From: a virus
Virus record (IMG/VR): IMGVR_UViG_3300034198_006763
Coordinates: 1 to 25,170 of that record
Length of the DNA: 25,170 nt
Reading direction: 5' to 3' (one strand)
In this document: positions 2,777 through 19,899 of the stretch, piece after piece
Position numbering within the stretch: position 1 is the first letter of the stretch
How the letters are laid out: each line of letters starts with the position of its first letter
Translations under genes and position numbers: made by a program
Notes under the pieces: model-generated
What the model was told of the DNA's origin: nothing
Database searches by the model: none
The model's input: only the letters and a program-made list of their open reading frames with translations

Positions 2777-3584
2777 ATTAGCAGAAGTTAAAATCATGGC
2801 CGAGTATATTAACTCGGTTTCAGAAGGTCAGATATACACTAACATTAGAAAGTCTGAAGAGACAAAGGTTAAAACAGAAATGGAAGATCCGTTTGCTGGA
2901 ATGCCATTTACCGTTAAGGCCGAAAGCAGAGGTAAAGAATTGATGGTTACCTTAATATCAATGGGAGGTGATGAGCGCTACATTAAGTTTGCAATGGGTA
3001 TGAGTGGTAATTGGTATCTTGCCAGCCCCGGCGAACTAGTTAAACATGCACATCTTAAATTTTATAGAGAAGATGGGTATGCTCTTATGATGGTTGATGT
3101 ACGTCGATTTGCTAAATGGGACTGGACTGAAGACTGGAGTAACAAGAGGGGCCCATGTCCATTGACTCAATATGAGGCATTTGTGAAAAACATTCAGGCT
3201 TCAATGAGTAAAAAGATATTTGAAAAGCCGATCTATGAAATACTCATGGATCAAAAGTACTTTAACGGTATCGGCAATTATTTAAGAGCTGAAATACTCC
3301 ATAGATACGATGTTAACCCATTTTTACCGGCTAAACAGGTTATAACTTATGATCTGCTTGAGCTTTGCCATGATGTCTGTCAGGAAGCCTATCTAGTAGG
3401 AGGTGGCGAACTTAAAGATTGGGATAATCCATTTAAGCGAGGCTATGGTAGAGGCAGAATAAATGAAAAGATGGGTAAGCTTGCTGATACTTCTTTCAGA
3501 GACTGGTTACAATGTTATGGTAAAATGGAAAGCCTTGAAGATAGTAAAGGTCGTAGATTTTGGTTTGATAAAAAATGGTTATGA
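2769..3584 (+). CDS. Fpg/Nei-family DNA glycosylase with a NEIL1-like zincless finger
   Basis: The gene starts at the ATG at 2769, not at the longer in-frame ATG at 2727, because the catalytic N-terminus must be Pro2-Glu3 and the protein then begins MPELAEVK. The 271-residue product excises damaged bases and cleaves the abasic site by beta/delta elimination. Lys56 in SRGKEL matches the conserved catalytic lysine of the family. The H2TH region is clear: DQKYFNGIGNYLRAEIL. The C-terminus lacks the four-cysteine zinc finger of bacterial Fpg and Nei. Instead it has DWLQCYGKMESLEDSKGRRF followed by WFD, closely resembling the 'zincless finger' of human NEIL1 and mimivirus Nei1, including the Arg before the aromatic pair. 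It overlaps the upstream gene by 8 nt and the downstream gene by 4 nt. Confidence 0.93.
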   Translation: MPELAEVKIMAEYINSVSEGQIYTNIRKSEETKVKTEMEDPFAGMPFTVKAESRGKELMVTLISMGGDERYIKFAMGMSGNWYLASPGELVKHAHLKFYREDGYALMMVDVRRFAKWDWTEDWSNKRGPCPLTQYEAFVKNIQASMSKKIFEKPIYEILMDQKYFNGIGNYLRAEILHRYDVNPFLPAKQVITYDLLELCHDVCQEAYLVGGGELKDWDNPFKRGYGRGRINEKMGKLADTSFRDWLQCYGKMESLEDSKGRRFWFDKKWL

Positions 3585-3925
3585 ATAGAGCAATACTAAT
3601 TTCAGCAATTTTATTTACGATTGGGCAAATCTTAATTTGGTTCCAGTCAAATGGGCAATTTATCAATGAGTGGTTTAAGAATAATACACTGTTGATTTCT
3701 TTTTTCGGGGTTCCAATTTCATATCTCTTTATACACGCAACGCGTTTAAGTTATGAGGGGTTTGAAGGAGCAACATGGCCAGGTAGAATGTTAGGCTTTG
3801 CCACAGGTGTTTTAGTCTTTACATGTCTTGCTTATTATTTCATGGGAGAAAACGTTAATTTAAAGACAGGCTTGTCACTAATCCTTTCATTCGGCATCAT
3901 TTGTATACAGGTATTCATGAAATGA
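3581..3925 (+). CDS. Small four-helix membrane protein, function unknown
   Basis: The 114-residue product has four hydrophobic segments, at about residues 4-21, 37-56, 68-88 and 95-113. Short polar links separate them, and a conserved-looking SYEGFEGATWPGRMLGF lies before the third. I chose the ATG at 3581 because it forms a 4-nt ATGA overlap with the glycosylase stop; an upstream ATG at 3575 would add two residues. The compact four-helix layout superficially resembles small multidrug-resistance-type proteins, but I see no conserved membrane glutamate of that family and do not assign it. It probably sits in the host inner membrane after infection. A holin role is possible for a phage membrane protein, but it lies far from any lysis gene seen here. 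Confidence 0.72.
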   Translation: MNRAILISAILFTIGQILIWFQSNGQFINEWFKNNTLLISFFGVPISYLFIHATRLSYEGFEGATWPGRMLGFATGVLVFTCLAYYFMGENVNLKTGLSLILSFGIICIQVFMK

Positions 3926-3935
3926 TATATACACT

Positions 3936-4163
3936 GTGAACAATATACCTACATTTGAAAAGTTTATTTATGAGAAGTCATATAAAGAACTGGGTTCAAA
4001 TGAACAGGATATGGTTACTGGTATTGCAGATATTCTAAATCAGGTTAAAGATAAAGATAATAGAAAATCTATAGCCGACGATCAGATTAAGCAATTCAAG
4101 AAAGAGAACATTGTATTTGACTATTCAGAATTTATGGATATGGTCATGAATAAAAACAAGTGA
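3936..4163 (+). CDS. Small protein with capsid-targeting-like N-terminus (GTG start)
   Basis: This 75-residue charged, helical protein is read from GTG at 3936, 10 nt after the previous stop. The N-terminus, MNNIPTFEKFIYE then KS, resembles the T4 capsid-targeting sequence (MKTYQEFIAE). That sequence directs internal head proteins and Alt into the prohead and is removed by the gp21 protease after I/L-x-E. Here I-Y-E at residues 11-13 would be the cleavage point. The next two genes carry the same kind of leader, which makes coincidence less likely. The mature part would be about 62 residues, rich in Lys, Asp and Glu, like a small internal head protein that binds or accompanies DNA. I know of no direct homologue; the packaging role is inference from the leader. 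Confidence 0.66.
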   Translation: MNNIPTFEKFIYEKSYKELGSNEQDMVTGIADILNQVKDKDNRKSIADDQIKQFKKENIVFDYSEFMDMVMNKNK

Positions 4164-4164
4164 C

Positions 4165-4410
4165 ATGAAAAAGTTTACTAATCTATTTGAGGCTAAAGCC
4201 AAGTATGATAAGAAAGACGTTGAAGACTTTCTTAAAAAGCACGATGAGATTGATGTCATCACTAATATAGGACAGAGGCTTTTTATACCAGGATATATGC
4301 ATACTAATGGTAAAGTAGAAGGTGCTGACGAGAGAGGAGTGTATGCACTGTTAATGGATGGCACTAAATTATATGTGCCTTATACTGAAATTAAAAAGCT
4401 TGAGTTTTAA
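4165..4410 (+). CDS. Small protein with capsid-targeting-like N-terminus
   Basis: This 81-residue protein begins MKKFTNLFEAKAKYDKKD. The leader has the basic-aromatic pattern of a T4-type capsid-targeting sequence and an L-F-E at residues 7-9, where a gp21-like prohead protease could cut. The rest is a helix-rich, charged segment (about 12-32) followed by a beta-rich part (about 33-81) with NIGQRLFIPGYMHTNGK and KLYVPYTEIKKLEF. This looks like a small SH3-like or single-sheet domain. The gene begins 1 nt after the previous stop, and its TAA shares a base with the ATG of the ATP-grasp gene, so the three leader-bearing genes are translationally linked. The function is unknown; I infer a minor internal head or injected protein. 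Confidence 0.66.
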   Translation: MKKFTNLFEAKAKYDKKDVEDFLKKHDEIDVITNIGQRLFIPGYMHTNGKVEGADERGVYALLMDGTKLYVPYTEIKKLEF

Positions 4411-5504
4411 TGAAACTTTTTTCATTTACACAATTTGTTAATGAGCAGATGAACTATCAGCGTGAAGCACCTGACAGTAAATTTGATATGCGTATTAGTA
4501 AAAAAGTAAATTGCTTTTCAGGTGAACATTGGTTTGGTGTAGATCGAGCCACGGGTATAGATGAGATTTATGATATAACGAAGAGAGATCTTTTCAATGT
4601 TATTACTCAACTTGAGTTTACTGGAAACACAAAGAAATTTGATTCTAATCTTCCAGCATTGGGTTATGTAGCAACATATACACAGTCTGTATTAGACGCA
4701 GGTTATAACCCAGAGTTAATGTACAATATGCCAGCAGACTCCCTTAAATTAAGAAAGGTTAATTTCTATAAGCAGCTAAACGAATTAGGTAGCGAGTATG
4801 TTTCCAAGACTGTTTTCAAAATAGAAGATACGCAAACTCTTAAATTTCCGGTTATTGCAAAAGCTGAAGCCTCATGGCAATCAAAGGGTGTTGAGAAATT
4901 TGACACAGTAGAAGATCTTAAAGCAAGTAAAGAAAGCTTTGATCTTTACCAGGAAGCATTTAACATAGATAAGGAATATAGGGCGATCATCTTTAATGGT
5001 AAAAAAGATAAGACTCCTAAGCTTCTTACGATGTCATTACGTACACCAGCAAATGAAAAAGCTAAGTCATTAAGAATTTCAGAAGGTGCTTCACATGACG
5101 AACTTGCAAGTAAAGATAATTCTAAATTTACATGGACAACAATTGATATTTTTGATAAAGAATGCGGTATCGATATGGGTGAAATTTCAGAAATGGTTGC
5201 CGATGTATTAAAGGTTAGCCCAGATATGAATATGTTTGCAATCGACGTTGCAATTGACAAGGACGGTAAGTACTGGTTAATAGAAGCTAACACTCAGCCT
5301 GGCCAAAACGGCATCACGTCACATCTAATATATCTGAATATGGTTAAAGACTTCTATGGTCTTAAGATTACTGGTGAAGATATTGATAAAATGAAGACAT
5401 CTATGTACGCTGCAATAAACGCTACACGTGCTTATATTTTAGGTTATACTATTCCAGATAATCTATATTCCGACCCACAGTGCTGGTATGGAATAGAACT
5501 TTAA
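4410..5504 (+). CDS. ATP-grasp ligase with capsid-targeting-like N-terminus
   Basis: This 364-residue protein shows the ATP-grasp fold. A lysine strand at about 146-161 reads FPVIAKAEASWQSKGV. A nucleotide-binding strand contains YQEAFNIDKEYRAIIFNG. The metal-binding end is FAIDVAIDKDGKYWLIEANT followed by QPG (about 276-298), with Asp279, Glu292 and Asn294 as likely Mg2+ ligands. ATP-grasp enzymes join a carboxylate to an amine or thiol through an acyl-phosphate. The nearest style is RimK or glutathione-synthetase-like, but the substrate cannot be read from sequence. The N-terminus MKLFSFTQFVNEQ resembles the leaders of the two preceding genes and the T4 capsid-targeting sequence, with V-N-E as a possible cut site at residue 12. 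If so, the enzyme would be packaged and injected, like T4 Alt. The enzyme class is fairly secure; packaging is inference. Confidence 0.82.
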   Translation: MKLFSFTQFVNEQMNYQREAPDSKFDMRISKKVNCFSGEHWFGVDRATGIDEIYDITKRDLFNVITQLEFTGNTKKFDSNLPALGYVATYTQSVLDAGYNPELMYNMPADSLKLRKVNFYKQLNELGSEYVSKTVFKIEDTQTLKFPVIAKAEASWQSKGVEKFDTVEDLKASKESFDLYQEAFNIDKEYRAIIFNGKKDKTPKLLTMSLRTPANEKAKSLRISEGASHDELASKDNSKFTWTTIDIFDKECGIDMGEISEMVADVLKVSPDMNMFAIDVAIDKDGKYWLIEANTQPGQNGITSHLIYLNMVKDFYGLKITGEDIDKMKTSMYAAINATRAYILGYTIPDNLYSDPQCWYGIEL

Positions 5505-6046: not shown

Positions 6047-6760
6047 GTGGTAATCGAATCAACCTGTGTCAAGACCATAATTGACTTATTAGAATCACTT
6101 CGTAAAAATTCATTTACGGCTACTGAAATACGTGTCAGTTATACACAGAGGGGTTCTAAAAAGCAGTATATAACATTTGCTACACTCGATACTCTTAAAG
6201 CAGACTATATAACTAAGTATGCTAAACAAATACAGTCTAAAAGGAGTCCATATACAAGCGATCCGATGTTAGCATTACAGGAACCTGTGTCGACTACTGT
6301 TGGCCAGCAACTTTTCAATACCTATAACCCGTATGAGATTTACTTTGAAGCATCTACTTTCTTTTGCAATACAGGAAGTTTAGTAACACTTGAAAGTTTT
6401 AATCTTACAAGTTATATGAAAGAGTATCAAATGTCATTTAACGTAAAAGACGTTACCAGTTCAATAAAGATTATAGATGGCAGTAGGTTCGATCTTAGAA
6501 GACAGGATCAAATTGCAGTCGTTGTAGCCAGATTCAAAAGTGCGGTACAAGATTTTATCTCAACCTACAATAAGATTTATGGTAGGCTTAATAGGTTATT
6601 TGTACAGGGTCAGTATGTCGATCTATGTTATGCTACAATCGGTTATGTTGAGTTTACATTTGAACTATATAAATTATTTTTTGCAATAAACAAAACACCG
6701 ATTGATGCCGGTATAACAGATATGCCATTAAAGAGGATGTATCTACGAGCTACACCATAA
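6047..6760 (+). CDS. Unknown protein at the head of the structural region (GTG start)
   Basis: The gene encodes 237 residues. A stop codon lies directly upstream in frame (TAA 6044-6046), so the frame must begin at or after 6047; GTG at 6047 is the only good start. The N-terminal half mixes helix and strand, with a mid segment STFFCNTGSLVTLESFNLTS. The second half is helical, with KSAVQDFISTYNKIYGRLNR and a hydrophobic stretch around GYVEFTFELYKLFFAINK that is too polar for a confident membrane helix. The C-terminus is short and basic (LKRMYLRATP). I recognise no family. It follows copy 1 of the repeated 17-bp motif and precedes a large fibre gene, so a virion or assembly role is likely but unproven. 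Confidence 0.68.
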   Translation: MVIESTCVKTIIDLLESLRKNSFTATEIRVSYTQRGSKKQYITFATLDTLKADYITKYAKQIQSKRSPYTSDPMLALQEPVSTTVGQQLFNTYNPYEIYFEASTFFCNTGSLVTLESFNLTSYMKEYQMSFNVKDVTSSIKIIDGSRFDLRRQDQIAVVVARFKSAVQDFISTYNKIYGRLNRLFVQGQYVDLCYATIGYVEFTFELYKLFFAINKTPIDAGITDMPLKRMYLRATP

Positions 6761-6762
6761 TC

Positions 6763-6770
6763 GATAAATA
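6763..6770 (+). promoter_or_regulatory. T4-late-like box GATAAATA before the fibre gene
   Basis: GATAAATA stands in the 22-nt gap ahead of the fibre gene and ends 12 nt before its ATG. It differs by one base from the T4 late -10 element TATAAATA. Its distance to the start codon equals that of the 17-bp motif copies, whose right ends read AAAAATA or CAAAATA. It may be a weaker version of the same signal, but an 8-bp AT-rich match is common by chance. Confidence 0.28.
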
Positions 6771-6782
6771 AAAAACAAACAG

Positions 6783-8753
6783 ATGCCAGTACTAAGTGAA
6801 TATATTAAGTTAAGAACAGAACAAAATAGAGAATTATCTTGGGGTGAACTTGATGATAATTTCCTATATGTTGCTAACCCATGGGTTACTTATAGACACT
6901 ATAAAGAAGGTAGCATCGTTTATTATGATGCCGGTATAACTGGCTCATCAGGTCTTTCTTGGTATAGAGCAACTGTAGATAACGGACCATCTGTAGTTTT
7001 TAATATCGGTGAATGGGAACCAGTTGGTGCATCAAGTGCCGGATCAGGTTCTATATTAGTTCAAAACGGTTTATCTACAAATACGGTTAGTGTTTTAGAT
7101 TTTGCTTCTAGTGATTTCAATATATCTGTAGTAGGCAGTACTGCTACAATTACACTAGACGGTTCTGCAATTAAATACTGGTTAGAATCAGGTGATCCTG
7201 GTATTGGCACAGGTCAAAATGCAGCTGCTGTTATACACACAGGTAACGTAGTAATTGGAGCGGGTTCTTTCGGCGCTAATAAATTAGCCGTTAATGGAAA
7301 TACTATCATTACTGGTGACTTAGTTGTAAATGGTACTGTAAATACAGTTGATGTACTTCAGCTTGCTACAGAATACGCTGCACATACACATACTGCTCTA
7401 CCTACAACTTTTACAAATTACTCTTCATTATTCCCAAATTCAATCGGGCAGCTTGAAGACTTTAACATAGACACTAGCACCCTAGTTAATGGTCAGGTTC
7501 TATCATGGGATAATTCAGGCCAGAAATGGGTTAATACTACAGCAGCCGCATCTAGTTTACAAACACTATCAGATGTTCAATTTGGTTTTTCATTAGCTGC
7601 TAATCAAATACTTCAATATAATGCAACCTCGGGTAAATGGACAAATAGAAACGTAGGTACTAATGGTGATACTGGTTTAATTATGCCAGGTTTTGGACAT
7701 AATCATGATACAAGATATTATACAAAAACACAATTAGGAACAGTTAGTTCAAGTTTTATAAATTGGAATAATTTATCCAGCTTACCTGCAGACAATACCG
7801 AGTATGTAATAATAGGAGCGATGGATTCACCGTTTGCTTCAAATTATGCTAGAACTTTAGGTTCTTCTGATGGTAGTATAAACATTGATACTACTACAAA
7901 TAACATTCTAGACTTGACTGTAGCTTCTGTTATAGGTCTAGAAGTCGACCAAGATGGAACAGGTGTTACAACAGGCTCTACTATTCTTGATTTTGTAACA
8001 AATTCATATGGAGGATTTACAATCACTTCGGTTACAGGAGGAGTAGCACAAATAGAATTAGATACTCCTACAATTCAAGTTGTTACAGATGTGGTAGGAG
8101 CTATAGATACAAGCTATTTGTATTTAGGCGACCCTGATGGATCAGGATGCGATACTGCCGATAGAAATGTTTTCTTTTCAGACTCTATTGCGCCTTCTGC
8201 AGGAACTGGCCAGTATAACGTATATGGTGTAGCTAAACAATGGGTTGGTAAAGAAAGTATTAGCAGCACAGTAACCTTTAATAGTTTACAACCTAGGTTA
8301 GTTTTTGTAGATACCGCTAACTTAACCTGGTCTGTTACTGAAGATATAGGAAACGGATATCATTTAGTAGAAGCTTCGCCTAATCTTAATTCCACTATTG
8401 GTGTATCTGTCGATGCTTCATTTATAGGTGACGCATCTGATATTGAATTTATCTCGGGTAATGGAGCGACAATATCCGGGAATGTATTGTCTGGTTCTGC
8501 ATTAGAGGTTACAGTTGATGTCAGTGCAGGTCTTGATATAATATGTTCTAATGATAATACCACAACGTCTCCTATAAAGATAACTGGTACCGGTGGTTAT
8601 TTTGAATTATCAGGCGGCGGTAATTTCATCGAAATAGATGACCCAGCTGATATTGCAGGCGAGACAGGTGGTATAATACTCAAGTCTCCTAATGGTAATA
8701 GATGGTTGGTAACCGTAGATAACTCTGGTGGCCTAGTCACAACTCCATTATAA
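6783..8753 (+). CDS. Tail fibre or other trimeric fibre protein
   Basis: This 656-residue protein is rich in Gly, Ser, Thr, Asn and beta-branched residues, with very few Lys and Cys, as in trimeric beta-structured phage fibres. The N-terminus (about 1-80) may be the virion anchor: SEYIKLRTEQNRELSWGELD, then a WYRA..GP carbohydrate-module-like patch. There are two NGQVLSWDNSGQKW / ANQILQYNATSGKW-type repeats near LQTLSDV. Two His-x-His sites, H201-T-H203 and H306-N-H308, recall the iron-binding HxH sites of T4 gp12 and gp37. A YYTKTQLGT segment is typical of fibres. The C-terminus ends with GGIILKSPNGNRWLVTVDNS, a common fibre tail. It could be a long tail fibre part, a short fibre or a whisker. 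Adhesin function is inferred from composition and motifs. Confidence 0.8.
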   Translation: MPVLSEYIKLRTEQNRELSWGELDDNFLYVANPWVTYRHYKEGSIVYYDAGITGSSGLSWYRATVDNGPSVVFNIGEWEPVGASSAGSGSILVQNGLSTNTVSVLDFASSDFNISVVGSTATITLDGSAIKYWLESGDPGIGTGQNAAAVIHTGNVVIGAGSFGANKLAVNGNTIITGDLVVNGTVNTVDVLQLATEYAAHTHTALPTTFTNYSSLFPNSIGQLEDFNIDTSTLVNGQVLSWDNSGQKWVNTTAAASSLQTLSDVQFGFSLAANQILQYNATSGKWTNRNVGTNGDTGLIMPGFGHNHDTRYYTKTQLGTVSSSFINWNNLSSLPADNTEYVIIGAMDSPFASNYARTLGSSDGSINIDTTTNNILDLTVASVIGLEVDQDGTGVTTGSTILDFVTNSYGGFTITSVTGGVAQIELDTPTIQVVTDVVGAIDTSYLYLGDPDGSGCDTADRNVFFSDSIAPSAGTGQYNVYGVAKQWVGKESISSTVTFNSLQPRLVFVDTANLTWSVTEDIGNGYHLVEASPNLNSTIGVSVDASFIGDASDIEFISGNGATISGNVLSGSALEVTVDVSAGLDIICSNDNTTTSPIKITGTGGYFELSGGGNFIEIDDPADIAGETGGIILKSPNGNRWLVTVDNSGGLVTTPL

Positions 8754-8785
8754 TAAACATTGTCTAATCCTCGTATATAAATTTT

Positions 8786-9352
8786 ATGTACGCGGAAAAA
8801 TATCAATGGATTAAAGGTGATAAAGTAGGTAATGTTGAATTATATAGTTCACATGATAACGAGTGGGTTTATTTTACGGGTGGTAATAGAATAAGCTCTT
8901 CTTTAATAAGTGAGTATATGATGCAAGTCGCTTCTGATACGCCGTTAGATTTAAGTATAACTAAGCAGGATCTCAGATCAACACCTACAAAGCATGCTGA
9001 TATATCTCCTGTTAAAAGGCAGGATGAATTTAATCCTGTAAAATCTCTATTAAAACAGGCTGCTAAAACAAAGCATTACTTTTCTTATACCTTCGATGCT
9101 GATATTCCTAAACAACAAGTATATAACCTAATACAGGATTCGTTTGAAACTAACATCGATGATTTATTGATTGATATGGTTATGTCAACTATAAATAAAA
9201 ACGAATTATACGAAAACGTTAAAGTACAACTCAGAGAGCAAATTCTTAAAATCTATAATAATGGAAAACAATCAGAACCAGGAGAATCTGGAAGTAATGA
9301 AAAATCAGACAAACACATGGGTGAACAGGAGACAGAGAAGGTCTTATCTTAA
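8786..9352 (+). CDS. Unknown protein (188 aa), possibly tail or assembly related
   Basis: The N-terminal 30 residues form a beta hairpin-like part (KYQWIKGDKVGNVELYSSHD, then EWVYFTGGNRI). A disordered, charged linker follows (about 55-90), then a helical domain (about 90-165) with YNLIQDSFETNIDDLLIDMV, and finally a Glu/Lys/Ser-rich tail. No catalytic motif is visible. The last 92 nt overlap the next gene in another frame, so the charged tail (SEPGESGSNEKSDKHMGEQE) is doubly constrained. It heads a run of five short genes (8.8-10.9 kb) between the fibre and the baseplate genes. Such positions often hold assembly chaperones or minor virion proteins, but I cannot choose. Confidence 0.65.
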   Translation: MYAEKYQWIKGDKVGNVELYSSHDNEWVYFTGGNRISSSLISEYMMQVASDTPLDLSITKQDLRSTPTKHADISPVKRQDEFNPVKSLLKQAAKTKHYFSYTFDADIPKQQVYNLIQDSFETNIDDLLIDMVMSTINKNELYENVKVQLREQILKIYNNGKQSEPGESGSNEKSDKHMGEQETEKVLS

Positions 9353-9608
9353 ACATGTTGGTGTCTTAGAAGCAAAGCGTAATCTTAGATTAAGTGACTG
9401 GGTGAATATCTGTAATAGAAATCAAACCGAAGGCTTGAAAAGGCACGGTGAGTATGAGGATATTGTAAGAAATAGCATCGAAAACCAATTGTCTCAAATA
9501 GAACAAAGAATACGTTTGTCATGTTCAGAGTTGGGTTTTAATAAAGAACAGACAGATTCTAAAGTTAATCAATGGACGGAGTCTTTAAAACCATGGCCTA
9601 ATTTTTAA
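9261..9608 (+). CDS. Unknown basic protein (115 aa or 103 aa)
   Basis: This frame overlaps the end of the previous gene. With the ATG at 9261 the overlap is 92 nt; with the in-frame ATG at 9297 it is 56 nt and the protein begins MKNQTNTWVNRRQRRSYLKH. The second start may be the real one, since a short N-terminal segment followed by NRRQRR recalls small phage assembly proteins. The remainder is helical and charged, with Trp near the end (WTESLKPWPNF). The frame continues 256 nt beyond the overlap without a stop, and its TAA shares a base with the next ATG, so I accept it as a gene. Function unknown. Confidence 0.62.
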   Translation: MENNQNQENLEVMKNQTNTWVNRRQRRSYLKHVGVLEAKRNLRLSDWVNICNRNQTEGLKRHGEYEDIVRNSIENQLSQIEQRIRLSCSELGFNKEQTDSKVNQWTESLKPWPNF

Positions 9609-9955
9609 TGATAAAGATTATTTTGGATATAGCCTCAAATGGTATTATCAAAACGGTTATTGATGATAATATAAACGGGGCTGGTGAAAAATACGAAAAG
9701 AAATATGTGTACGATTTCGAAGACGATAAAGAGTTTAAGAAACGTATACAATTTCTTTTTGAATTATGTGATGAGGTTGGTATAGAAACAGGTAATAAAT
9801 TCGATCGTAATACTCTAGTCATGAAAAATGAATGGGGTAAAAGTTATATGCCGACTGATGATGAGTTAGATTCCAAAATAAAAACTATCAGTAATGAACT
9901 TAAATACTTAAAATCTCTTAAAAAAGAATTAGATGAGCTCAATGAAAAAGATTAA
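9608..9955 (+). CDS. Unknown acidic protein with C-terminal coiled coil (115 aa)
   Basis: The gene begins with a TAATG overlap on its neighbour. The N-terminal third looks like two or three beta strands (IKIILDIASNGIIKTVIDDN), and the middle is acidic (DFEDDKEFKKRI). The last 30 residues (SKIKTISNELKYLKSLKKEL then DELNEKD) form a likely coiled coil, suggesting oligomerisation. No known family is recognised. The neighbours are similarly short genes of unknown role. Confidence 0.62.
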   Translation: MIKIILDIASNGIIKTVIDDNINGAGEKYEKKYVYDFEDDKEFKKRIQFLFELCDEVGIETGNKFDRNTLVMKNEWGKSYMPTDDELDSKIKTISNELKYLKSLKKELDELNEKD

Positions 9956-10340
9956 ATGCGTTTACTCAAAGAATAAACTAGACTTTAAGAAATATTCAAG
10001 ATGTTCTGATTATCAGGAGGTTGTAAGTTACTATGATATAATTGCTAAGCTAATTAAAAATGACATAGATGGTGTTAAACCAAGTGAATTTGTAGTAAAT
10101 TCATATATTAGAAAAAGGTTAATTAAGGCAATAGAAGATTCTGATACCATCTTATACGCTTTAAAGAATCTAGATGCAGAAGCCGTCGATTCTATAAAAT
10201 CAATAGTATGCGAAGCTTATGAAGGTGAAATAATTTTCGAGCTAGCTATAATAGATGCTAAAAGAAATAAAATAGATCTATGTGAAGATTTAGCATCCAG
10301 ATTTAATGAAGTCATTAACATAGACTATGGTCAATCATAA
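9942..10340 (+). CDS. Unknown helical protein (132 aa)
   Basis: I chose the ATG at 9942 (MKKIKCVYS) because it gives a 14-nt overlap with the previous gene, the same overlap seen at two other junctions in this window (10327-10340 and 19886-19899). An ATG at 9933 would add three residues. The product is mainly alpha-helical with alternating charged and hydrophobic residues, for example SEFVVNSYIRKRLIKAIEDS and LDAEAVDSIKSIVCEAYEGE. No cofactor or metal motif is present. The context is a translationally coupled run of small genes before the baseplate genes. Function unknown. Confidence 0.62.
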   Translation: MKKIKCVYSKNKLDFKKYSRCSDYQEVVSYYDIIAKLIKNDIDGVKPSEFVVNSYIRKRLIKAIEDSDTILYALKNLDAEAVDSIKSIVCEAYEGEIIFELAIIDAKRNKIDLCEDLASRFNEVINIDYGQS

Positions 10341-10890
10341 ATTATTCGTTAAAGGTGAAAGGGTTTATTCCCTTTTAATATCACATTCGCATCCCAATAT
10401 TTTAATACCAGTTAAGGGTATAGTGAAAGATGTTAAATACGATGAGGTTAACCCAGAGTATTTAATTAAAATAATTAAATTTTACGATTCAGCCGATTTC
10501 TTAAGACTTAATTTCTCGAAAATGAGTTACGTTCAAACATTCGGTAATAAACCTAGGCGTTTGAAATTTAATGAAGACAATCCGCTTAAAACACATGATG
10601 ACTTTTTTATAGATATAAATGGCCCTAAAGAAAGAAAGTTTATGGTGGTTGTTGACTCTATAATGACTTTGCAATATAAACAGGATATGTTTGAACTTTT
10701 TAATAAAGTTGAAGACCATGTAATAGAAAAAGAATTAAGAAACATTAAGCAGCACACGTGCCGTACGGCGTATAAGGGTAAGTATAATATTTCTACCCAG
10801 ATTGAGTTTTTTCTAAGGCTGCGCAGATTCATCGGTGATAAAATAACAGATGATGATAAAAGGTGGTTGGAGTTTACAGAAAGGCTGTAA
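10327..10890 (+). CDS. Unknown protein (187 aa)
   Basis: This is the last of the five short unknown genes. The N-terminal part (about 1-60) looks like a small beta barrel: KLFVKGERVYSLLISHSHPN, then VKGIVKDVKYDEVNPEYLIK, in the style of a KOW or SH3-like fold. The C-terminal half is helical and basic, with KQDMFELFNKVEDHVIEKEL and QIEFFLRLRRFIGDK. The start overlaps the previous gene by 14 nt. No known family is recognised. The following gap carries copy 2 of the 17-bp motif, so this gene probably ends a transcription segment. Confidence 0.65.
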   Translation: MVNHKLFVKGERVYSLLISHSHPNILIPVKGIVKDVKYDEVNPEYLIKIIKFYDSADFLRLNFSKMSYVQTFGNKPRRLKFNEDNPLKTHDDFFIDINGPKERKFMVVVDSIMTLQYKQDMFELFNKVEDHVIEKELRNIKQHTCRTAYKGKYNISTQIEFFLRLRRFIGDKITDDDKRWLEFTERL

Positions 10891-10894
10891 ACCC

Positions 10895-10911
10895 AATATA
10901 TACCAAAAATA
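10895..10911 (+). promoter_or_regulatory. 17-bp repeated upstream motif, copy 2
   Basis: AATATATACCAAAAATA occupies the middle of a 32-nt gap and ends 11 nt before a TTG start at 10923. It is identical to copy 1 (6018-6034) except for one base and differs from copy 3 (18552-18568) at one base. Here too it precedes a virion gene with a weak start codon. Confidence 0.62.
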
Positions 10912-10922
10912 GATAAGCAAAA

Positions 10923-12794
10923 TTGGCTAGAGTTACAGGAGCAAAAGGACCATCATTGAGCAGTGCAGCACAGTCTGATAATGCAGCTACAGTTCTTGAG
11001 TCCAGTCTTAATAATAATTACAGGTCTGAGAATATAGGTGTTTACTTAAATTCACAGTACGATCAATCCTTCCCATTAAAGAAATACGAATTACAGGATT
11101 TTACGGTAAAGGAAGACGGTGAAGCGCCTGCTTCAATGATTAACAGATATGTCTTGTTCCAATATAAGGGTTTAAATGGACCTGCATTAAGTGTTCAAGA
11201 TTATAGAGACAATCCCGGCTCTAGATTTATAGTTGATAAACAATATCAGATGGCTTTGCAGCCTACTACTACGAATATCATAAATTATTTTAATGATATT
11301 CCTGATAACATAAGTATGATTTATAGTTATTCTGATTTCATTTATTGTAAATATCATGGTAAGATACCTAATAACTATATGCTTACGTTGAGAAGATTTC
11401 ATCTTCCGGTACTTGATGATATCATGTCTCCTACTACATATGATTTTAAGTCTAAACAAACTGTAGATACTAGACAGCCTGACCTGGCCAGAGCAGTAAC
11501 TTGGATGAGTGAAGCTACCGGCAATAAACTTGAAGATATAATCAAATTCAATACTGAGCTTAAATTCAAAGAGGTTGAATCTGAAATGCAAGTACTTCAA
11601 TCTAATGCACAGGGTATTCAAGGAAGTAGTATACTGGGCATAGGTACAACTGGATTTGGTTTAGGTTCTGCAATATCCAGTGCTGCAACACTAGGATCTG
11701 GTACAACCACTGCAGGCGGTAGAGAAACTGCGGCAAGTGGCGGATTTGATGCTACAAAATCTACATATCCTAATTTTGTTGAGGGACCATTGTATGTTAT
11801 TAAACGTATCATGGTTAAGGATAGTGGCATATACTGTGCACCTGAATTTAAGTTAACATTTAATTATAGCTTAAGATCTTATAACAATATTAACCCCAAA
11901 ATAGCATTACTTGATATAATGGCAAATATGTTGGTATTAACGTATAATGCTGCTCCTTTCTGGGGAGGAGCTACACGTTATGTCGGTAATGGTACATTTG
12001 GAAAGCCAATGGGTGATCACTCTAAATTAGCAGCAGGTGACCTAGGTGGTTTTATAAACAGCCTGGTAAGTGATGCAGGTGGCATGTTAACTAAAATATT
12101 CGGTGATGGTAGCGGTAACGTTACATTAGAAAGTGCACTTGGTGGATTAGGTAAAGTTGGAGGTGATATGTTAGGTGGATGGTTGTCTAAAAACTTTAAT
12201 ACGCCACAGGGTGCACAAGGCGCCGCTGCCTTCTTATCAGGATCACCTACAGGTAACTGGCATCTTACGATAGGCAACCCGCTAAATCCTATTGCAATGA
12301 TAGGTAATCTTGTTCTAACTACAAGTGAATATAAGTTTGTAGGACCGTTAGGTAAAGATGATTTCCCATCAGAACTTGAAGTAGTCGTTACATTAAAGAG
12401 CGGTAGAGATAGAGATAAAGGTGACATTGAGAATATGTTTAATGCTGGACGAGGTAGACTATATCAAGTACCGGAAGGATTTGAAGATTTTACTAATATA
12501 AGCGGTAAGCAGCCACCTGTAGTAACAGCATATTCTAAATTACCTGCTCCGAACGATTCAAACGGATTCTCACAAAGACAGAATACTGGTGGAATATCAA
12601 ATGCTGGGCATAATGCAGCTGCAAATAATTCAGGGCCTGATACTATATGGGGTGCAGGAAAAGAAGTGTATGATGCTAATCTAAAAACACAAGGTGATGC
12701 TGCATCAAATTGGTTAGATTCCAAATTTCAAAATATAAAAAAATCAGATGCTGCAAATCTATTTAGATTTTCAAATGCTGTAAACCATGGTTAA
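10923..12794 (+). CDS. Baseplate or tail-tube-initiator-like structural protein (TTG start)
   Basis: The gene encodes 623 residues read from TTG at 10923. A stop at 10914-10916 lies upstream in frame, and only GCA AAA separates it from the TTG. The fold seems to be two tube- or baseplate-like domains, about 30-215 and 285-345 plus 440-510. They are joined by low-complexity Gly/Ser/Ala stretches (about 225-275 and 375-445). The C-terminal domain has NWHLTIGNPLNPIAMIGNLV and LGKDDFPSELEVVVTLKSGR, a pattern I associate with contractile-tail baseplate proteins close to the tube (gp48/gp54 region). It is directly followed by gp53-like and gp27-like genes, so a central baseplate position is likely. 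The exact T4 equivalent is not certain. The tail is Asn/Gly/Ala-rich and probably disordered. Confidence 0.68.
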   Translation: MARVTGAKGPSLSSAAQSDNAATVLESSLNNNYRSENIGVYLNSQYDQSFPLKKYELQDFTVKEDGEAPASMINRYVLFQYKGLNGPALSVQDYRDNPGSRFIVDKQYQMALQPTTTNIINYFNDIPDNISMIYSYSDFIYCKYHGKIPNNYMLTLRRFHLPVLDDIMSPTTYDFKSKQTVDTRQPDLARAVTWMSEATGNKLEDIIKFNTELKFKEVESEMQVLQSNAQGIQGSSILGIGTTGFGLGSAISSAATLGSGTTTAGGRETAASGGFDATKSTYPNFVEGPLYVIKRIMVKDSGIYCAPEFKLTFNYSLRSYNNINPKIALLDIMANMLVLTYNAAPFWGGATRYVGNGTFGKPMGDHSKLAAGDLGGFINSLVSDAGGMLTKIFGDGSGNVTLESALGGLGKVGGDMLGGWLSKNFNTPQGAQGAAAFLSGSPTGNWHLTIGNPLNPIAMIGNLVLTTSEYKFVGPLGKDDFPSELEVVVTLKSGRDRDKGDIENMFNAGRGRLYQVPEGFEDFTNISGKQPPVVTAYSKLPAPNDSNGFSQRQNTGGISNAGHNAAANNSGPDTIWGAGKEVYDANLKTQGDAASNWLDSKFQNIKKSDAANLFRFSNAVNHG

Positions 12795-12797
12795 GAT

Positions 12798-13337
12798 ATG
12801 AGAATACAAACAATGACAAGTCTGGCGCAGACTGTCGATCAAGAAACAGGTGAGCAAAAAATAAATATTGCTATACCGCCATTTAAGATTGCAGCTGATG
12901 TTAGATTGCTTAATATCCATTATGTAACTCAAGACGAGGTAATGAGACCAGATCTTATCTCTGTAATGTATTATGGTACACATCAATATATGGATATCAT
13001 ACTTAAAGCTAATGCTATATCAAATCCATTTTGTATTAAAGAGGGTATGTTTTTAATTATACCTGAGCAGACAAGTGCAATGTCACAGTACAAACCTATA
13101 CGCAAGTCCCTTAAGCCTAGAACTCAGTTCCAGGATAAAAAGAGAATTACGCCAACAGATAAGAAAAGACTTGAGTTTCTTGCAGCAAAGTCTAGTACTA
13201 AGAAAAATGGTTCAAGTGAGAATCTTCCTCCTAATATGTTAAAGTCAGATCAGAAATCAAAGATAGTACAAGGTAATGATACTATTCTACTGGGTGCAAA
13301 TTTAGGTATACAGAAAGAGCAAAACTCTAGAATTTAA
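12798..13337 (+). CDS. Baseplate wedge protein, gp53-like, with LysM-like domain
   Basis: In this 179-residue protein, residues about 42-90 (VTQDEVMRPDLISVMYYGTH, then QYMDIILKANAISNPFCIKE and GMFLIIPE) have the LysM-like pattern of phage baseplate proteins. They resemble the T4 gp53 segment that reads '..P..LA..IYG....YWVLL..N...DPY'. gp53 connects baseplate wedges around the hub. The C-terminal 80 residues are basic and probably disordered. The gene starts 3 nt after the previous gene and ends in a TAATG overlap with the hub gene. It is about as long as T4 gp53. A P2 gpX-like LysM tail protein that links tube and baseplate is the alternative. Confidence 0.7.
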   Translation: MRIQTMTSLAQTVDQETGEQKINIAIPPFKIAADVRLLNIHYVTQDEVMRPDLISVMYYGTHQYMDIILKANAISNPFCIKEGMFLIIPEQTSAMSQYKPIRKSLKPRTQFQDKKRITPTDKKRLEFLAAKSSTKKNGSSENLPPNMLKSDQKSKIVQGNDTILLGANLGIQKEQNSRI

Positions 13338-14839
13338 TGGCAAAGATATCTAATAACATATTAACGGTTACAGAACCTATTATTAGACTAGAACCATTTG
13401 AAATAGGTGACAGCGAAACTGCGACGAAGCCTAATACGAATAATGATAAAATGAGTAAATTTGCAGGCGATCAATTCCCTGCGATCAGAGTGAATAAGAT
13501 TGATTTTAATAGAGATGATATCATTTCATTCAATCTTAACCTAGACTCAATGGTACCTAGCTTTAACATGGTTGTTAGAGATACAAAGGGTCAAATAACT
13601 AAGAGTAGATATCCTGCAGATGGTGATGTTATAAACATTTTGATTAGAAGTAAAGATGAAGAGGTTTATAAACCTATTAGAATGGACTTTGATATTACTG
13701 AAGTTTCAACTACACCTCTAGCAACGGCTGAATCCTATAGTGGAGGTAGCGAATTAGAAGGTGCAGTTGAGGTAGCAATAACAGGTGTAACTAGATTACC
13801 GGGTTTATTTGCAGAAATATGTAAATCTTATCCCGAAGACACTTCTTTTAATTATTTTATTGATGTAGCAGAAGAGCTTGAAATAGGTTTTGCTAGTAAT
13901 GAAGATTCTACTGACGATACTATGAAAAGATTTTGTGCATTTGATACTAAATACAAGTTAATGCAGGATAGTCTATCGTCCTCTTATAAAGATGATAACA
14001 GTTTTTTTACCCTGTACATCGATCCTTACTATTATTTGAATTTAGTAAACGTAAACAAGCAAATAACATTTGATGAAAGTCTTGAAGATACTTTAAATTC
14101 GATGATACAGGATGCAAGTACAACAAAGACAATTGAAGATGGCTCTAATAATGCCATAGATGATAAGCTTTATTTAACCAATCATAATTCCAAGAGAGGT
14201 AGTGCAACATTTATGAATAAGTACAAGCTTGTAAATAATGCGGCATCAGTAACACTAGGCGATGGCTATAGAAGAATTATACAATATTATGATGACGTCG
14301 ATAAAGAATATAGAACATTTACCGTTGAATCATTAACTACTGAAGAGTTACCTGCAGATCAAGCACCACTTAAGGGTAAGCTTAATCCAGAAGGTGATAA
14401 AATGTATAAGATACAACAGAAATATAAGTATGTTGGTAAACAGGGTAAAAATGTACATGCTAACTACTATTATGCACAGATGCTTAATTATAAGAACATG
14501 TTAGAACTAGAGAAGATGTATCTTGAAGTTGAGTTAGAAACAGCAAATATGGCTTTATATAGATATCAGATAGTACCTGTTCTTATCTTTGAACAAAACG
14601 CAGAAAAAGCTGAAATACAACAACAGAAAGAAATTAAGTCACAGGATCAAGGTACTGAAATGAAGGATAAGAAAGGTGTTAATGCAGATCTTGAAAATGG
14701 TTTACAGAAACAGAAGGTTGATGAAAGATTAACTGGCGTATATACAATAGCTAGAATTAACTATACATATGACGAAACAGAGGGAAGGATTAGACAAAAA
14801 TTAACACTCTTTAGAAGAGAGTGGCCGAACACACCATAA
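13337..14839 (+). CDS. Baseplate hub protein, gp27/gpD-like
   Basis: This 500-residue protein matches the hub family in layout. The early segment FPAIRVNKIDFNRDDIISFN and LDSMVPSFNMVVRDTKG forms a beta-barrel domain of the gp27/gpD type. GVTRLPGLFAEICKSYPED (about 151-172) is followed by a helical RFCAFDTKYKLMQDSLSSSY, then FFTLYIDPYYYLNLVNVNKQ, resembling 'IPFDNRPWEALQ..A...G..FYID..G.L..' regions of tail hub proteins. The protein is longer than T4 gp27. A charged Lys/Gln/Glu insertion sits near 415-455, and the C-terminus ends in a beta strand pair (GVYTIARINYTYDETEGRIR). Three copies would form the cup above the spike, whose gene lies 1.3 kb downstream. Confidence 0.75.
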   Translation: MAKISNNILTVTEPIIRLEPFEIGDSETATKPNTNNDKMSKFAGDQFPAIRVNKIDFNRDDIISFNLNLDSMVPSFNMVVRDTKGQITKSRYPADGDVINILIRSKDEEVYKPIRMDFDITEVSTTPLATAESYSGGSELEGAVEVAITGVTRLPGLFAEICKSYPEDTSFNYFIDVAEELEIGFASNEDSTDDTMKRFCAFDTKYKLMQDSLSSSYKDDNSFFTLYIDPYYYLNLVNVNKQITFDESLEDTLNSMIQDASTTKTIEDGSNNAIDDKLYLTNHNSKRGSATFMNKYKLVNNAASVTLGDGYRRIIQYYDDVDKEYRTFTVESLTTEELPADQAPLKGKLNPEGDKMYKIQQKYKYVGKQGKNVHANYYYAQMLNYKNMLELEKMYLEVELETANMALYRYQIVPVLIFEQNAEKAEIQQQKEIKSQDQGTEMKDKKGVNADLENGLQKQKVDERLTGVYTIARINYTYDETEGRIRQKLTLFRREWPNTP

Positions 14840-14840
14840 C

Positions 14841-16097
14841 ATGGCAACATCTACAAGAACATTTGATTTAGCAACAATTGAGAGATTCACGAAAGGTATA
14901 CAATCCGATTACGGTAAGTATAATGATCCTACATACTTAGGGTTCGTTTTTCTTTTTAATGACTTTGACCCTAATGTTAGCCCATTATTAGCAAGAGGCA
15001 CAGACAGCGCTCCGCCTCCTGTAGGTTCAGCGCTAAGTTACCTTGCTTCTATAAATGATACTGCTAGATATAATTACCTAAAGTTGTTTCAGGAGCTTTT
15101 ACTAGATACTAATTACTGGATGCCATGGTATTGGCAACAGATAGATGGGATTGATAAAATATGGGATTACGGCGGTCTTAAAGATCCATATAAAGGCGGA
15201 GACGATTCTAGATTGAAGGTAACAACACTTGAATCAATTGATTTGAGAATTACGGCTTTAATGGATTTGTATAGAAAAGCTTGTTATGACTATACATATA
15301 GAAGGTTTATTTTACCAGATAATTTAAGGAAATTTCAGGTTAGTATTTTTATACAGGAAATAAGAAATATACAGGTTGACTTTGGTGCACTTGGTAATGC
15401 AATAAACACTGTTAACCAATTATCAGGTGCTTATCCTCAGCTATCACCCCTTAATATACCCGTAGAAACACCTAAACAGAGGGCAGCTAGAGAAACAGCA
15501 CAAGTTTCTAATGAGTTTGGTGCAAATATGATGTTCACTTTAAAGTATTGTGAATTTGATGCGGATAAATCATTTGGTAGTTTTGCTTCAGTTAATAACT
15601 CTGCACCTGAACCTGCTTCACAGGTCATAGAATTTACATATGACAGTATAGATGAAAGTTATTTGAATCCGACTGTAGTAAATACGCCACCTGGTTATAG
15701 TACAGCAGGTATGAACTATTCATTCCTCGGTGATCTTCCAGCACCTCCTACAAGTGCAGGTGAAGGCATGCTGCAAAAGCTTGAAAAACTAGCTTCAGAC
15801 CCGGATTATAGGGAAGACATAATGAAAAGCGCTGCCAAAAATGCAGGTGCTGCTTTAGGTGCTGCTGCAGCAAATGCCGTAGATACTTTAGCTACGAATG
15901 CGGCTAACCGGGTACAGGGTGAACTAAACAGATTGTTGTTAGGTAATGTATATGGTTTTTCACCATCCCAGGTATTGACGTCACTTCAACAGGGATCTTT
16001 ATTATCACTTGGACCACAGGCACAAAATATAGCAGAGAATAGACGCAGAAACAATTCTGACAATGCTCCTATAAACCTAGGTAATTATTATAAGTAA
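14841..16097 (+). CDS. Baseplate/tail-tube-associated structural protein
   Basis: This 418-residue protein starts 1 nt after the hub gene. Its N-terminal 170 residues are helical and Trp/Tyr-rich (LLLDTNYWMPWYWQQIDGID). A beta domain follows (about 165-275) with NLRKFQVSIFIQEIRNIQVD and MMFTLKYCEFDADKSFGSFA, which looks like a tube-type beta sandwich. The C-terminus has an Ala-rich helix (AAKNAGAALGAAAANAVDTL) and LLLGNVYGFSPSQVLTSLQQ. I associate that 'LGNVYG' ending with gp48/gp54-type tail-tube initiators in T4-like phages, but not firmly. Its position between hub and spike genes supports a place at the hub-tube junction. Confidence 0.66.
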   Translation: MATSTRTFDLATIERFTKGIQSDYGKYNDPTYLGFVFLFNDFDPNVSPLLARGTDSAPPPVGSALSYLASINDTARYNYLKLFQELLLDTNYWMPWYWQQIDGIDKIWDYGGLKDPYKGGDDSRLKVTTLESIDLRITALMDLYRKACYDYTYRRFILPDNLRKFQVSIFIQEIRNIQVDFGALGNAINTVNQLSGAYPQLSPLNIPVETPKQRAARETAQVSNEFGANMMFTLKYCEFDADKSFGSFASVNNSAPEPASQVIEFTYDSIDESYLNPTVVNTPPGYSTAGMNYSFLGDLPAPPTSAGEGMLQKLEKLASDPDYREDIMKSAAKNAGAALGAAAANAVDTLATNAANRVQGELNRLLLGNVYGFSPSQVLTSLQQGSLLSLGPQAQNIAENRRRNNSDNAPINLGNYYK

Positions 16098-17370: not shown

Positions 17371-18513
17371 ATGTCAGGTTATCAAACCGATGAAGCATTC
17401 TGGGAAGAGATAGAATCAGAACAGAAAAAGCTTAAAAGAATCCCAAACAATAAAGTAAAAACCAACGGTGCTAAGGTTTTCTACTATGGTTCAGATGCAC
17501 AAGAAATGTATGACCGGTACGAAGGAAAGTCAAGCCAATACAAAGAACCAGTAAATGGTGAATTGATAGAAGGTGAGCTTATCAGTATAGGTAATGATAC
17601 TGCGGTATTTGAAATAGGTTACAGAGAACAGGCTTATATGGATTTGAAAAAAGAATCCAATGAGTATTTAGATCTATTTAAAGTTGGTAGTAAACTCTCA
17701 GTTAAGGTAAGTCAAAATAAAATAAAAGACTTTATCTCGGTTTCGTTTACAGATAGTGTAAATGAAATGAAAACAAAAAGCTTAGTAGAATCTATTGATA
17801 AAGATGTAGCTTATGTTGCTAAAATAGAAGAACTTATTTCAGCAGGTTACATAGTTGATATAGATGGTATTAAAGCTTTCATGCCAGGTTCTTTAGCTGG
17901 CTTAAATAAATTAAATGACTTCTCTTCTTTGCTAGGTAAGCAACTAATAGTAATGCCAGTTAATTTTTCTAGAGAAAAGGGTACGGTTGTTGTTTCACAT
18001 AGACAATATCTACACTCGCTCATACCTTCTGCAATAGAGAAGATAAAGGAGAATCCAACACGACTGCATACAGGGTTTGTTACGGGTACCACAAAATACG
18101 GAGTGTTCTGTGAATTTAGTGAGTGTCTTACTGGTATGATACATGTAAGTGATCTTACTGATGATCTAAAAGAAAAGCACGCTAACGGTCAAATCAAATC
18201 TGGTGAATCTTTAGATTTCTATATCAAGGACGTTATAAGTAATTTCAAAATAATTTTAACTCAGTTTTACAAAGAAAACCCCTGGGATAACGTTGATGAA
18301 ATTTATAAACCGTCTTCAGTAGTCATGGGTAAAATTACAAGTATAAAAGAGTATGGTGCATTTGTTGAGCTTTCACCAGGTATTTCAGGTCTTATACATA
18401 TTAGCGAACTGAAAGGTAAATTCAATGAAGGTGATATGGTTGGGGTTAGAATTAACAAGATAGATAAAATAAATAAAAAAGCCTATCTGGGTTTAGCTTC
18501 AGATCTTAAATAA
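17371..18513 (+). CDS. Ribosomal protein S1 homologue with four S1 domains
   Basis: This 380-residue protein is built from S1-type OB domains. Domain 1 (about 62-128) contains VNGELIEGELISIGNDTAVF. Domain 2 (about 145-212) contains AYVAKIEELISAGYIVDIDG and GTVVVSHRQYL. Domain 3 (about 238-300) contains GFVTGTTKYGVFCEFSECLT. Domain 4 (about 315-378) contains VVMGKITSIKEYGAFVELSP then GISGLIHISEL. The order and wording are those of bacterial bS1, which has six domains in E. coli. bS1 binds single-stranded mRNA and brings it to the 30S subunit. A phage copy could favour phage mRNA, or protect or count RNA; that is inference. It stands alone: an inverted repeat precedes it and a strong terminator follows. 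The acidic-basic N-terminal 60 residues are not S1-like. Confidence 0.9.
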   Translation: MSGYQTDEAFWEEIESEQKKLKRIPNNKVKTNGAKVFYYGSDAQEMYDRYEGKSSQYKEPVNGELIEGELISIGNDTAVFEIGYREQAYMDLKKESNEYLDLFKVGSKLSVKVSQNKIKDFISVSFTDSVNEMKTKSLVESIDKDVAYVAKIEELISAGYIVDIDGIKAFMPGSLAGLNKLNDFSSLLGKQLIVMPVNFSREKGTVVVSHRQYLHSLIPSAIEKIKENPTRLHTGFVTGTTKYGVFCEFSECLTGMIHVSDLTDDLKEKHANGQIKSGESLDFYIKDVISNFKIILTQFYKENPWDNVDEIYKPSSVVMGKITSIKEYGAFVELSPGISGLIHISELKGKFNEGDMVGVRINKIDKINKKAYLGLASDLK

Positions 18514-18579: not shown

Positions 18580-19899
18580 ATGTTGTTAAACGAACAAACC
18601 GTAAACGTTTTATTGAACTCGAAGATAGGATATGAGTTTGAATTTTATTCTAACTATTCTGCAGATGACACAGCTGAAAAGCTGGCTAAATATTTAGGTA
18701 AAAAGATATCTGTCTTTGATGAATCACATAGTGACTTCAAAGTAACTACAGACCACTATAAACTAGAGAAAGATTATTCAGGAGGCAAAAAACTTATAGA
18801 GCTTGTTACAGGTTCCCAACCATACCAAGAAGCTAGAGTGACTTTAATCAAAGTTCTTAAATGGATAAAAGAGAATGGTTACACTAATGATAGATGTGGT
18901 ATTCACTTTAACATTTCGTTTAATGATGAGAAAATGGGATCCAGTTTTCTTACAAGACTAAATAGATTAAAGTTTATTTTAGATTTTGATGAGGATAAAA
19001 TCTGGAAAGATTATCCTAATAGGAAAAATTCAGTTTATGCAAAGTCTATTAAATTTGTAATACCCGTAGATAAACTTAGTTATGAAACTACAAAGGGTGT
19101 TAATCAGGCAGACTTTATTTTCCCAACAGAAAAGTATTACGGTGTTAATTTCTTAAAGCTCGAAAAGAATTATTTAGAGTTTAGATATTTAGGTGGAGAT
19201 GGTTATGAGAAGATGACAGACAAGCTTTTAGCAACACAGGACCAGTTTATTGAGTCACTATATAAAGCTGCTGCAAATCCAGCCTTTAGTGCTGATGATA
19301 AAAAGAAGCTTACTAATATTCTAGATAAACATAAGGGTGCTATTAAAGCATATAGTTCATTTAAGTTATTTAAAGAAAACTTTCCAGATATCGGTATACT
19401 GGTAAACATGGACACCGATGATAGAAACATCAATTCATTCTGGTCTAAGATCAGAGAAAAGATATTTGAAATACTTACAGAAGGTTCCATGAAAAAGGGT
19501 ATTATAAATTATGATTCTAACACAGGTAAGATACAACTTAAAGATGCTGACTTCAGTGGAGCTTTTAAGCTCGAAGAGGTAGATCTAATTGATTGTAAAA
19601 ATGTTAGAGGTATTGTAAATAAGTGTGATGTATTTTCTTGTAATCTAGAAGGTGCTGAAGTATATGAATCTAACCTTTTTGATAACTGTAAAACACTTAA
19701 CTGTAAACTTAAAGATTGTTATGTAAATACATCTTCAACTATTAAAGACTCTTATTTTTGCGGTAAAAACGGTGTTATGAATGGTACAATGATAAATGGT
19801 ATATTCAGAGAAGGTAAGATTACAGATCTTTCTAAATTTGACGGTACTGAAGTTGTAGAATACGAAAAAATAATTCCAGGTGTAAATGCCAAGTATTAA
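18580..19899 (+). CDS. Amidoligase (Amidoligase_2-like) with C-terminal solenoid-like domain
   Basis: This 439-residue protein shows the signature of the COOH-NH2 ligase family related to gamma-glutamylcysteine synthetase. It has IGYEFEFYS with Glu19 and Glu21; KDYSGGKKLIELVTGSQPY with Asp65, Ser67 and Glu74; RCGIHFNIS with Cys106, His109 and Asn111; and VNFLKLEKNYLEFRYLGGDG with Glu200 and Arg202. Such enzymes use ATP to form amide bonds, often on peptides or proteins; the substrate here is unknown. From about residue 304 a second domain follows, made of short Cys/Asn-rich repeats (DADFSGAFKLEEVDLIDCKN, CDVFSCNLEGAEVYESNL, CKTLNCKLKDCYVNTS) that look like a pentapeptide-repeat or beta-solenoid module. 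It ends with MINGIFREGKI and TEVVEYEKI. It sits between S1 and the wedge genes, behind motif copy 3, and overlaps the next gene by 14 nt. Confidence 0.82.
   Translation: MLLNEQTVNVLLNSKIGYEFEFYSNYSADDTAEKLAKYLGKKISVFDESHSDFKVTTDHYKLEKDYSGGKKLIELVTGSQPYQEARVTLIKVLKWIKENGYTNDRCGIHFNISFNDEKMGSSFLTRLNRLKFILDFDEDKIWKDYPNRKNSVYAKSIKFVIPVDKLSYETTKGVNQADFIFPTEKYYGVNFLKLEKNYLEFRYLGGDGYEKMTDKLLATQDQFIESLYKAAANPAFSADDKKKLTNILDKHKGAIKAYSSFKLFKENFPDIGILVNMDTDDRNINSFWSKIREKIFEILTEGSMKKGIINYDSNTGKIQLKDADFSGAFKLEEVDLIDCKNVRGIVNKCDVFSCNLEGAEVYESNLFDNCKTLNCKLKDCYVNTSSTIKDSYFCGKNGVMNGTMINGIFREGKITDLSKFDGTEVVEYEKIIPGVNAKY

Follow-up and report, generated by a model that had tools for sequence, protein, structure and literature searches.

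Do the short N-termini shared by three consecutive genes of a viral DNA fragment serve as capsid-targeting propeptides, as do those of the internal head proteins of phage T4? The question is raised by a single IMG/VR viral record of 25,170 bases (hereafter the window, i.e. the whole stretch of DNA analysed), which carries T4-like baseplate genes. The relevant features of the window are as follows.

3936..4163, + strand: gene A, encoding a small, mostly charged protein of 75 aa, with a GTG start codon
3936..3974, + strand: leader A, MNNIPTFEKFIYE, in the T4-type register (F7, F10, I11, E13)
4165..4410, + strand: gene B, encoding a protein of 81 aa with no assigned function
4165..4191, + strand: leader B, MKKFTNLFE, in the PAU-type register (F4, L7, E9)
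4408..4412, + strand: TAATG overlap (TTTTAATG) of the stop codon of B and the start codon of C, which sets the start of C
4410..5504, + strand: gene C, encoding an ATP-grasp ligase of 364 aa, whose C-terminal half is similar to YheC/D and D-Ala-D-Ala ligases
4410..4445, + strand: leader C, MKLFSFTQFVNE, in the T4-type register (F6, F9, V10, E12)

The positions and N-termini of the three ORFs given in the original prediction were confirmed, with the addition of the GTG start of gene A. The start codons are well fixed, since only 1 nt separates the stop codon of A from the start of B, and the ATG of C overlaps the TAA of B. The short leaders are therefore placed at the exact N-termini, with start codons constrained by gene overlaps and conserved in homologues. 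Pairwise comparison revealed that the bodies of A, B and C are unrelated to one another, in agreement with the earlier statement that they share nothing obvious downstream of the leader.

Judging by its sequence, the window is part of the genome of a jumbo myophage whose relatives include LR756500, the Lak phages and PAU. Its gp6-like wedge protein gave the best match to LR756500.1 (48%), an uncultured phage of 462 kb (here W01), followed by Lak phages, Tenacibaculum phages and PAU. A search for relatives with the gene C protein as the single query gave no match; they were found via the conserved baseplate gene, and an alignment of C later yielded 24 C homologues. The relatives with overlapping content are W01 and the contigs G001 (28 kb), G003 (123 kb), G004 (151 kb), G007 (71 kb) and G002 (44 kb), the last two being of the same type. 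The order A-B-C is retained in G001, G003 contains only C, and G007 carries B at another place. Genes were called by a simple longest-ORF method, in which the start was chosen freely. The window also encodes, among its baseplate genes, a protein with two S1 RNA-binding domains (17371-18513); G001 and G007 contain genes at a similar place. A 439-aa protein of the tail cluster (18580-19899) has no Pfam or PHROG match; it may have an amidoligase-like fold.

In T4, the first ten residues of IPIII are sufficient for its incorporation into the head; residues 4 and 7 are important for targeting and residues 8 and 10 for processing, and Asp at position 10 blocks processing while leaving targeting intact. 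The gp21 protease cleaves after L/I-x-E (PMC9026906). Leaders A and C contain an aromatic residue at positions E-6 and E-3, and I, L or V at E-2, followed by the E, which is the arrangement of the T4 capsid-targeting sequence (aromatic at 4 and 7, aliphatic at 8, E at 10). Leader B has L at E-2 and lacks the aromatic residue at E-3. The proposal that all three genes carry the same leader thus holds for A and C, while B, ending in L7-F8-E9 and not in F-I-x-E, belongs to the type found in PAU: MK and any third residue, a hydrophobic residue at 4, L or I at 7 and E at 9, on otherwise unrelated bodies. In T4 itself, gene 61.1 (NC_000866.4, 19130-18966) encodes a hypothetical protein of 54 aa that starts with MKTFKEFIKE, a perfect capsid-targeting register; its product is possibly an unrecognised T4 internal protein.

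Such similarity could arise by chance, from the biased composition of the N-termini of AT-rich phages, or by paralogy of whole proteins, and the window by itself is compatible with this, being only moderately significant and hence weak evidence when taken alone. The T4-register pattern occurs in 2 of its 34 ORFs, versus approximately 0.07 expected (P ~0.002) from the rate of about 0.002 per site at internal positions of the relatives, and cross-trained leader profiles (trained on regex matches) were not significant for the window by itself. A scan of all proteins for the pattern, suggested in the original prediction and run with the T4 register set as the rule beforehand, revealed a strong N-terminal excess in four relatives, with 52 proteins in the pooled set versus approximately 2.5 expected: 13/173 in G003 (0.35 expected; P 7e-17), 9/157 in G004 (0.35 expected), 8/110 in G007 (0.06 expected) and 22/725 in W01 (1.8 expected; P 4e-17). 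No excess was observed in PTm1, MaF61 and Lak-A1. A stricter pattern matched 58 of 1,230 gene N-termini (at least 2 of these 58 are spurious or misplaced starts) versus a single match among 2,990 internal Met controls.

A degenerate DNA pattern for leaders of the MKYIKxFExFINE type matched 30 IMG/VR stretches, and none in 84,980 prokaryote genomes (257 Gb). The IMG/VR loci matched in this way, some of which are near-duplicates, contain 79 tagged genes. The 113 distinct leaders from the window, its relatives and loci L134-L163 have F or Y at E-6 and E-3, I, L or V at E-2, and the E; their consensus is M-K-[YH]-I-K-x-[FY]-E-x-F-[ILV]-N-E, with a length of 13 residues in 85 of them. In 62% of these leaders, the presumed cleavage site is followed by S, A, N or G, which might fit a P1' preference of a protease. 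In four W01 leaders (at 12212, 14298, 265240 and 271250), the final E is replaced by D, N or K, as if the proteins were targeted but left uncut, like T4 IPIII with Asp at position 10; the lack of the E in such leaders also counts against the capsid-targeting reading. A further phage, LR745206.1 (635 kb; locus L166), contains tandem genes (2995-5106) starting with MKHLKAFEEYE, MKYLKKYKAFE and MKYLKTFESID, without I-x-E, which perhaps represent a third leader type.

Paralogy is contradicted by the diversity of the tagged bodies, since the leader is common to otherwise unrelated proteins of one phage. The 14 tagged bodies of G003 fall into 14 families, the 8 of G007 into 8, the 12 of locus L139 into 11, and the 25 of W01 into 18, including a leucine-rich-repeat (LRR) group. 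The average DNA identity in W01 is 72% within the leader versus 42% upstream and 37% downstream of it, and in the W01 genes at 314520 and 316693 the leader DNA is identical letter for letter while the bodies differ. When reciprocal-best pairs with any tag were compared, both partners were tagged in 14 of 28, and most of the others show a weaker version of the leader. Tagged genes are significantly clustered side by side in W01 (P 0.001), and not significantly so in G003, G004 and G007. Locus L139 contains 12 tagged genes within 8.3 kb (6261-14537), and the three tagged proteins of this array that were searched against Pfam gave no match. W01 also encodes a family of seven leader-bearing paralogues (11706-15898, 181730, 199531, 313912 and 332545); several of them are LRR proteins by Pfam, which is unusual for virion cargo.

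The leaders are also retained in homologues, as required by the original prediction. The gene A protein, which has no database match outside the relatives and none in phage records, is 80% identical in G001. Its leader there reads MKNILSFDNFINE, with F7, F10, I11, E13 and the GTG start conserved; all 6 nonsynonymous changes between the two leaders spare both F residues, the I and the E. Homologues of gene B, for which a search of phage records gave no match, occur in G001 (2613-2864; 40%) and G007 (35447-35701; 42%), and begin with MKKFSSILE and MKKFSKLLE, respectively.

Gene C encodes a member of the ATP-grasp superfamily: both PF14398 (31.6 bits) and PF07478 (26.8 bits) exceed the curated cut-off, and the predicted ATP/Mg residues K116, K151, E182, D279 and E292 are invariant across the alignment. 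Foldseek retrieved ATP-grasp enzymes (E down to 3e-6) with a model of low confidence (pLDDT 51), fit for fold recognition only; matches to the R2K group were weak and below the cut-off. Homologues of C were sought via internal ATP-grasp motifs alone, i.e. blind to the leader. The search yielded 24 loci (approximately 15 distinct N-termini), 23 of which begin with a leader, at a median pairwise body identity of 0.29. The remaining one, L188, has the decayed form MKYLKLFENF, without I-x-E, and the leader of the W01 ATP-grasp protein is also decayed, a point against the capsid-targeting reading. Five of the loci encode the ATP-grasp domain behind another domain; the one fusion whose sequence was inspected in full (L175) carries the leader at its N-terminus and none at the internal junction. 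Because tagged ATP-grasp proteins recur across many phages, this enzyme appears to be a preferred cargo. Leaders that persist where bodies fall to 23-29% identity are contrary to both chance and paralogy. Together with the enrichment and the unrelated bodies, this retention led us to reject chance, composition and paralogy, whose combined probability we regard as negligible.

Capsid targeting of the T4 type also demands a processing enzyme, and the original prediction accordingly called for a gp21-type protease. An S77 (gp21-type) prohead protease with the motifs GE[LM]xHP and S[ST]R is encoded in G004 and W01, adjacent to the portal and capsid genes. Among the contigs of the leader scan, it is present in all five of at least 100 kb and in none of the 10 shorter ones. 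PF03420 was not found in the window or in G001, G003 and G007, which is attributable to the small size of these fragments; the 25-kb window contains no head genes and is too short to hold its own protease. PTm1 and Lak-A1 encode an S77 protease and lack a comparable set of leaders, which counts against the capsid-targeting reading.

A link with the virion is provided by PAU, which is related by the baseplate gene and encodes the S77 protease gp151. A start similar to MK-x-[I/L]-xx-LYE is present in 22 of 300 PAU genes versus 2 of 1139 internal Met positions, and in 4 of the 5 proteins annotated as internal capsid proteins (hypergeometric P 1.1e-4). Leader B resembles MKSLTNLYE of one of these proteins, gp142, and shares with MKTLTQLYE, also of PAU, the register of a hydrophobic residue at 4, L or I at 7 and E at 9. 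The PAU record gives no basis for these labels; they were probably not derived from the leader, because most leader genes are unlabelled and gp70 is labelled despite lacking it. By N-terminal sequencing, the mature PAU major capsid protein retains 520 of its 585 residues (PMC5646251). This places the cut no more than one residue away from the L-x-E site ALME64; cleavage after N65 agrees a little better with the mature length than does cleavage after E64. The ELYE and NLYE motifs in the major capsid proteins of W01 and G004, considered as the counterpart of ALME, were rejected, as MAFFT did not align them with it. The PAU leaders are of the B type, and not of the longer T4-like type of A and C, which PAU does not use; this counts against extending the PAU evidence to the latter two.

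The same leader is carried by gp152, the annotated scaffold protein of PAU, and small charged proteins are frequent among the tagged ones. Both observations would fit an assembly tag only, i.e. a leader on prohead core or scaffold proteins (like T4 gp67, gp68 and gp22) that are degraded or expelled and never injected. We consider this unlikely, since the tagged bodies are often enzymes without an assembly role (ATP-grasp, PNK3P phosphatase, 2H phosphoesterase, DUF2201/VWA and CCA-type polymerase), the tagged families vary strongly from phage to phage, unlike a core scaffold, and four of the PAU leader proteins bear the internal capsid protein annotation. Even less probable is a localisation helix for a non-capsid site, such as a replication compartment, a membrane or the tail. 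A short amphipathic N-terminal helix could indeed dock elsewhere, and residues 6-13 of C are helical in the low-confidence model, but the positions of the E and of I/L/V agree with the S77 cleavage rule, as does the register with that of T4, a virion link exists in PAU, and the tail and baseplate genes of the window have no leader.

The excess of leaders in the relatives, their retention in homologues and the S77 protease in the relatives thus support the T4-like interpretation. We estimate at roughly 0.8 the probability that the N-termini of A, B and C are capsid-targeting propeptides, whose cargo is packed, cleaved and probably injected. According to this model, the leader of 9-19 residues would dock the protein on the prohead core via two spaced hydrophobic or aromatic residues. 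The S77 protease would then cut after the terminal [I/L/V]-x-E (A and C) or [L/I]-x-E (B), with loss of the leader, and the freed cargo would remain in the filled head and probably enter the host with the DNA. Genes A, B and C may constitute a single small cassette of such cargo, linked at the level of translation, in which the ATP-grasp ligase would act at once on a host or virion component, ahead of phage gene expression. R2K ATP-grasp ligases of jumbo phages are predicted to modify host proteins, e.g. translation factors (PMC7824862), and by analogy we infer that the product of gene C may do likewise.

The proposed system resembles that of T4 (IPI-III and Alt, processed by gp21) in its N-terminal leader of 10-20 residues on unrelated proteins and in the tandem genes for small internal proteins. 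It differs in being much expanded, with 8-25 cargoes per contig or genome versus a handful in T4; in addition, the leaders mostly span 13 residues and follow a consensus of their own (MK[YH]IKxFExFINE), and among the cargo are enzymes that are not known to occur in T4 heads. The S77 proteases of W01 and G004 comprise approximately 610-630 aa, whereas T4 gp21 is a protein of about 212 aa. An N-terminal signal also directs the injected anti-defence protein DarB into the capsid of phage P1, but this signal is approximately 30 residues long and was shown for one protein, and is not common to many genes (PMC9024508). The inner-head propeptides of phiKZ and SPN3US are likewise cleaved after E by a gp21-related protease, and the cargo is ejected; unlike the leaders described here, they are mostly longer than 100 residues, end in A-x-E or S-x-E and contain no common short tag (PMC5694885). 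The T4 capsid-targeting mechanism is known; within the reach of our searches, what is new is the spread of the leaders, the coexistence of two leader types and the enzymatic nature of the cargo.

The tagged proteins of the relatives include PNK3P phosphatases (3'-phosphatases) in G004 and W01, and a 2H phosphoesterase of G003 with two HxT motifs, close to the Acb1 and 2'-5' RNA ligase families. A PolyA_pol/CCA-type enzyme of G004 has a looser leader. A tagged 421-aa family with ligase-type motifs is present in G003, G004 and W01; the motifs EKxDG, ARNK, EGxVF and YKLTG point to a ligase-like nucleotidyltransferase, and a fold search with its model (pLDDT 44) gave no significant match. An AAA ATPase, a DUF2201/VWA protein and LRR proteins are also tagged. 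As a lead, the PNK3P, 2H phosphoesterase, CCA-type and 421-aa proteins would fit RNA-end repair, which is known in jumbo phages and, in the literature covered, not as virion cargo. We tentatively suggest, as a possibility that we would put at somewhat below even odds, an injected enzyme kit that combines RNA-end repair or anti-signalling with a host-factor-modifying ligase, all loaded by one portable leader. Its members would be the 3'-phosphatase, the 2H cyclic-phosphate/Acb1-like phosphoesterase, the ligase-like nucleotidyltransferase, the CCA-type polymerase and the ATP-grasp ligase. If so, the phage could resist host defences that cleave tRNA or use cyclic nucleotides even before its first protein is made.

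The set of injected proteins of a phage is usually not known without virion proteomics. A leader that can be read from the sequence would predict this set for many uncultured jumbo phages, including the small proteins of tandem arrays such as that of L139, and would point to early-acting anti-defence and host-modifying enzymes. A tag of this length could also be used to load chosen proteins into such heads.
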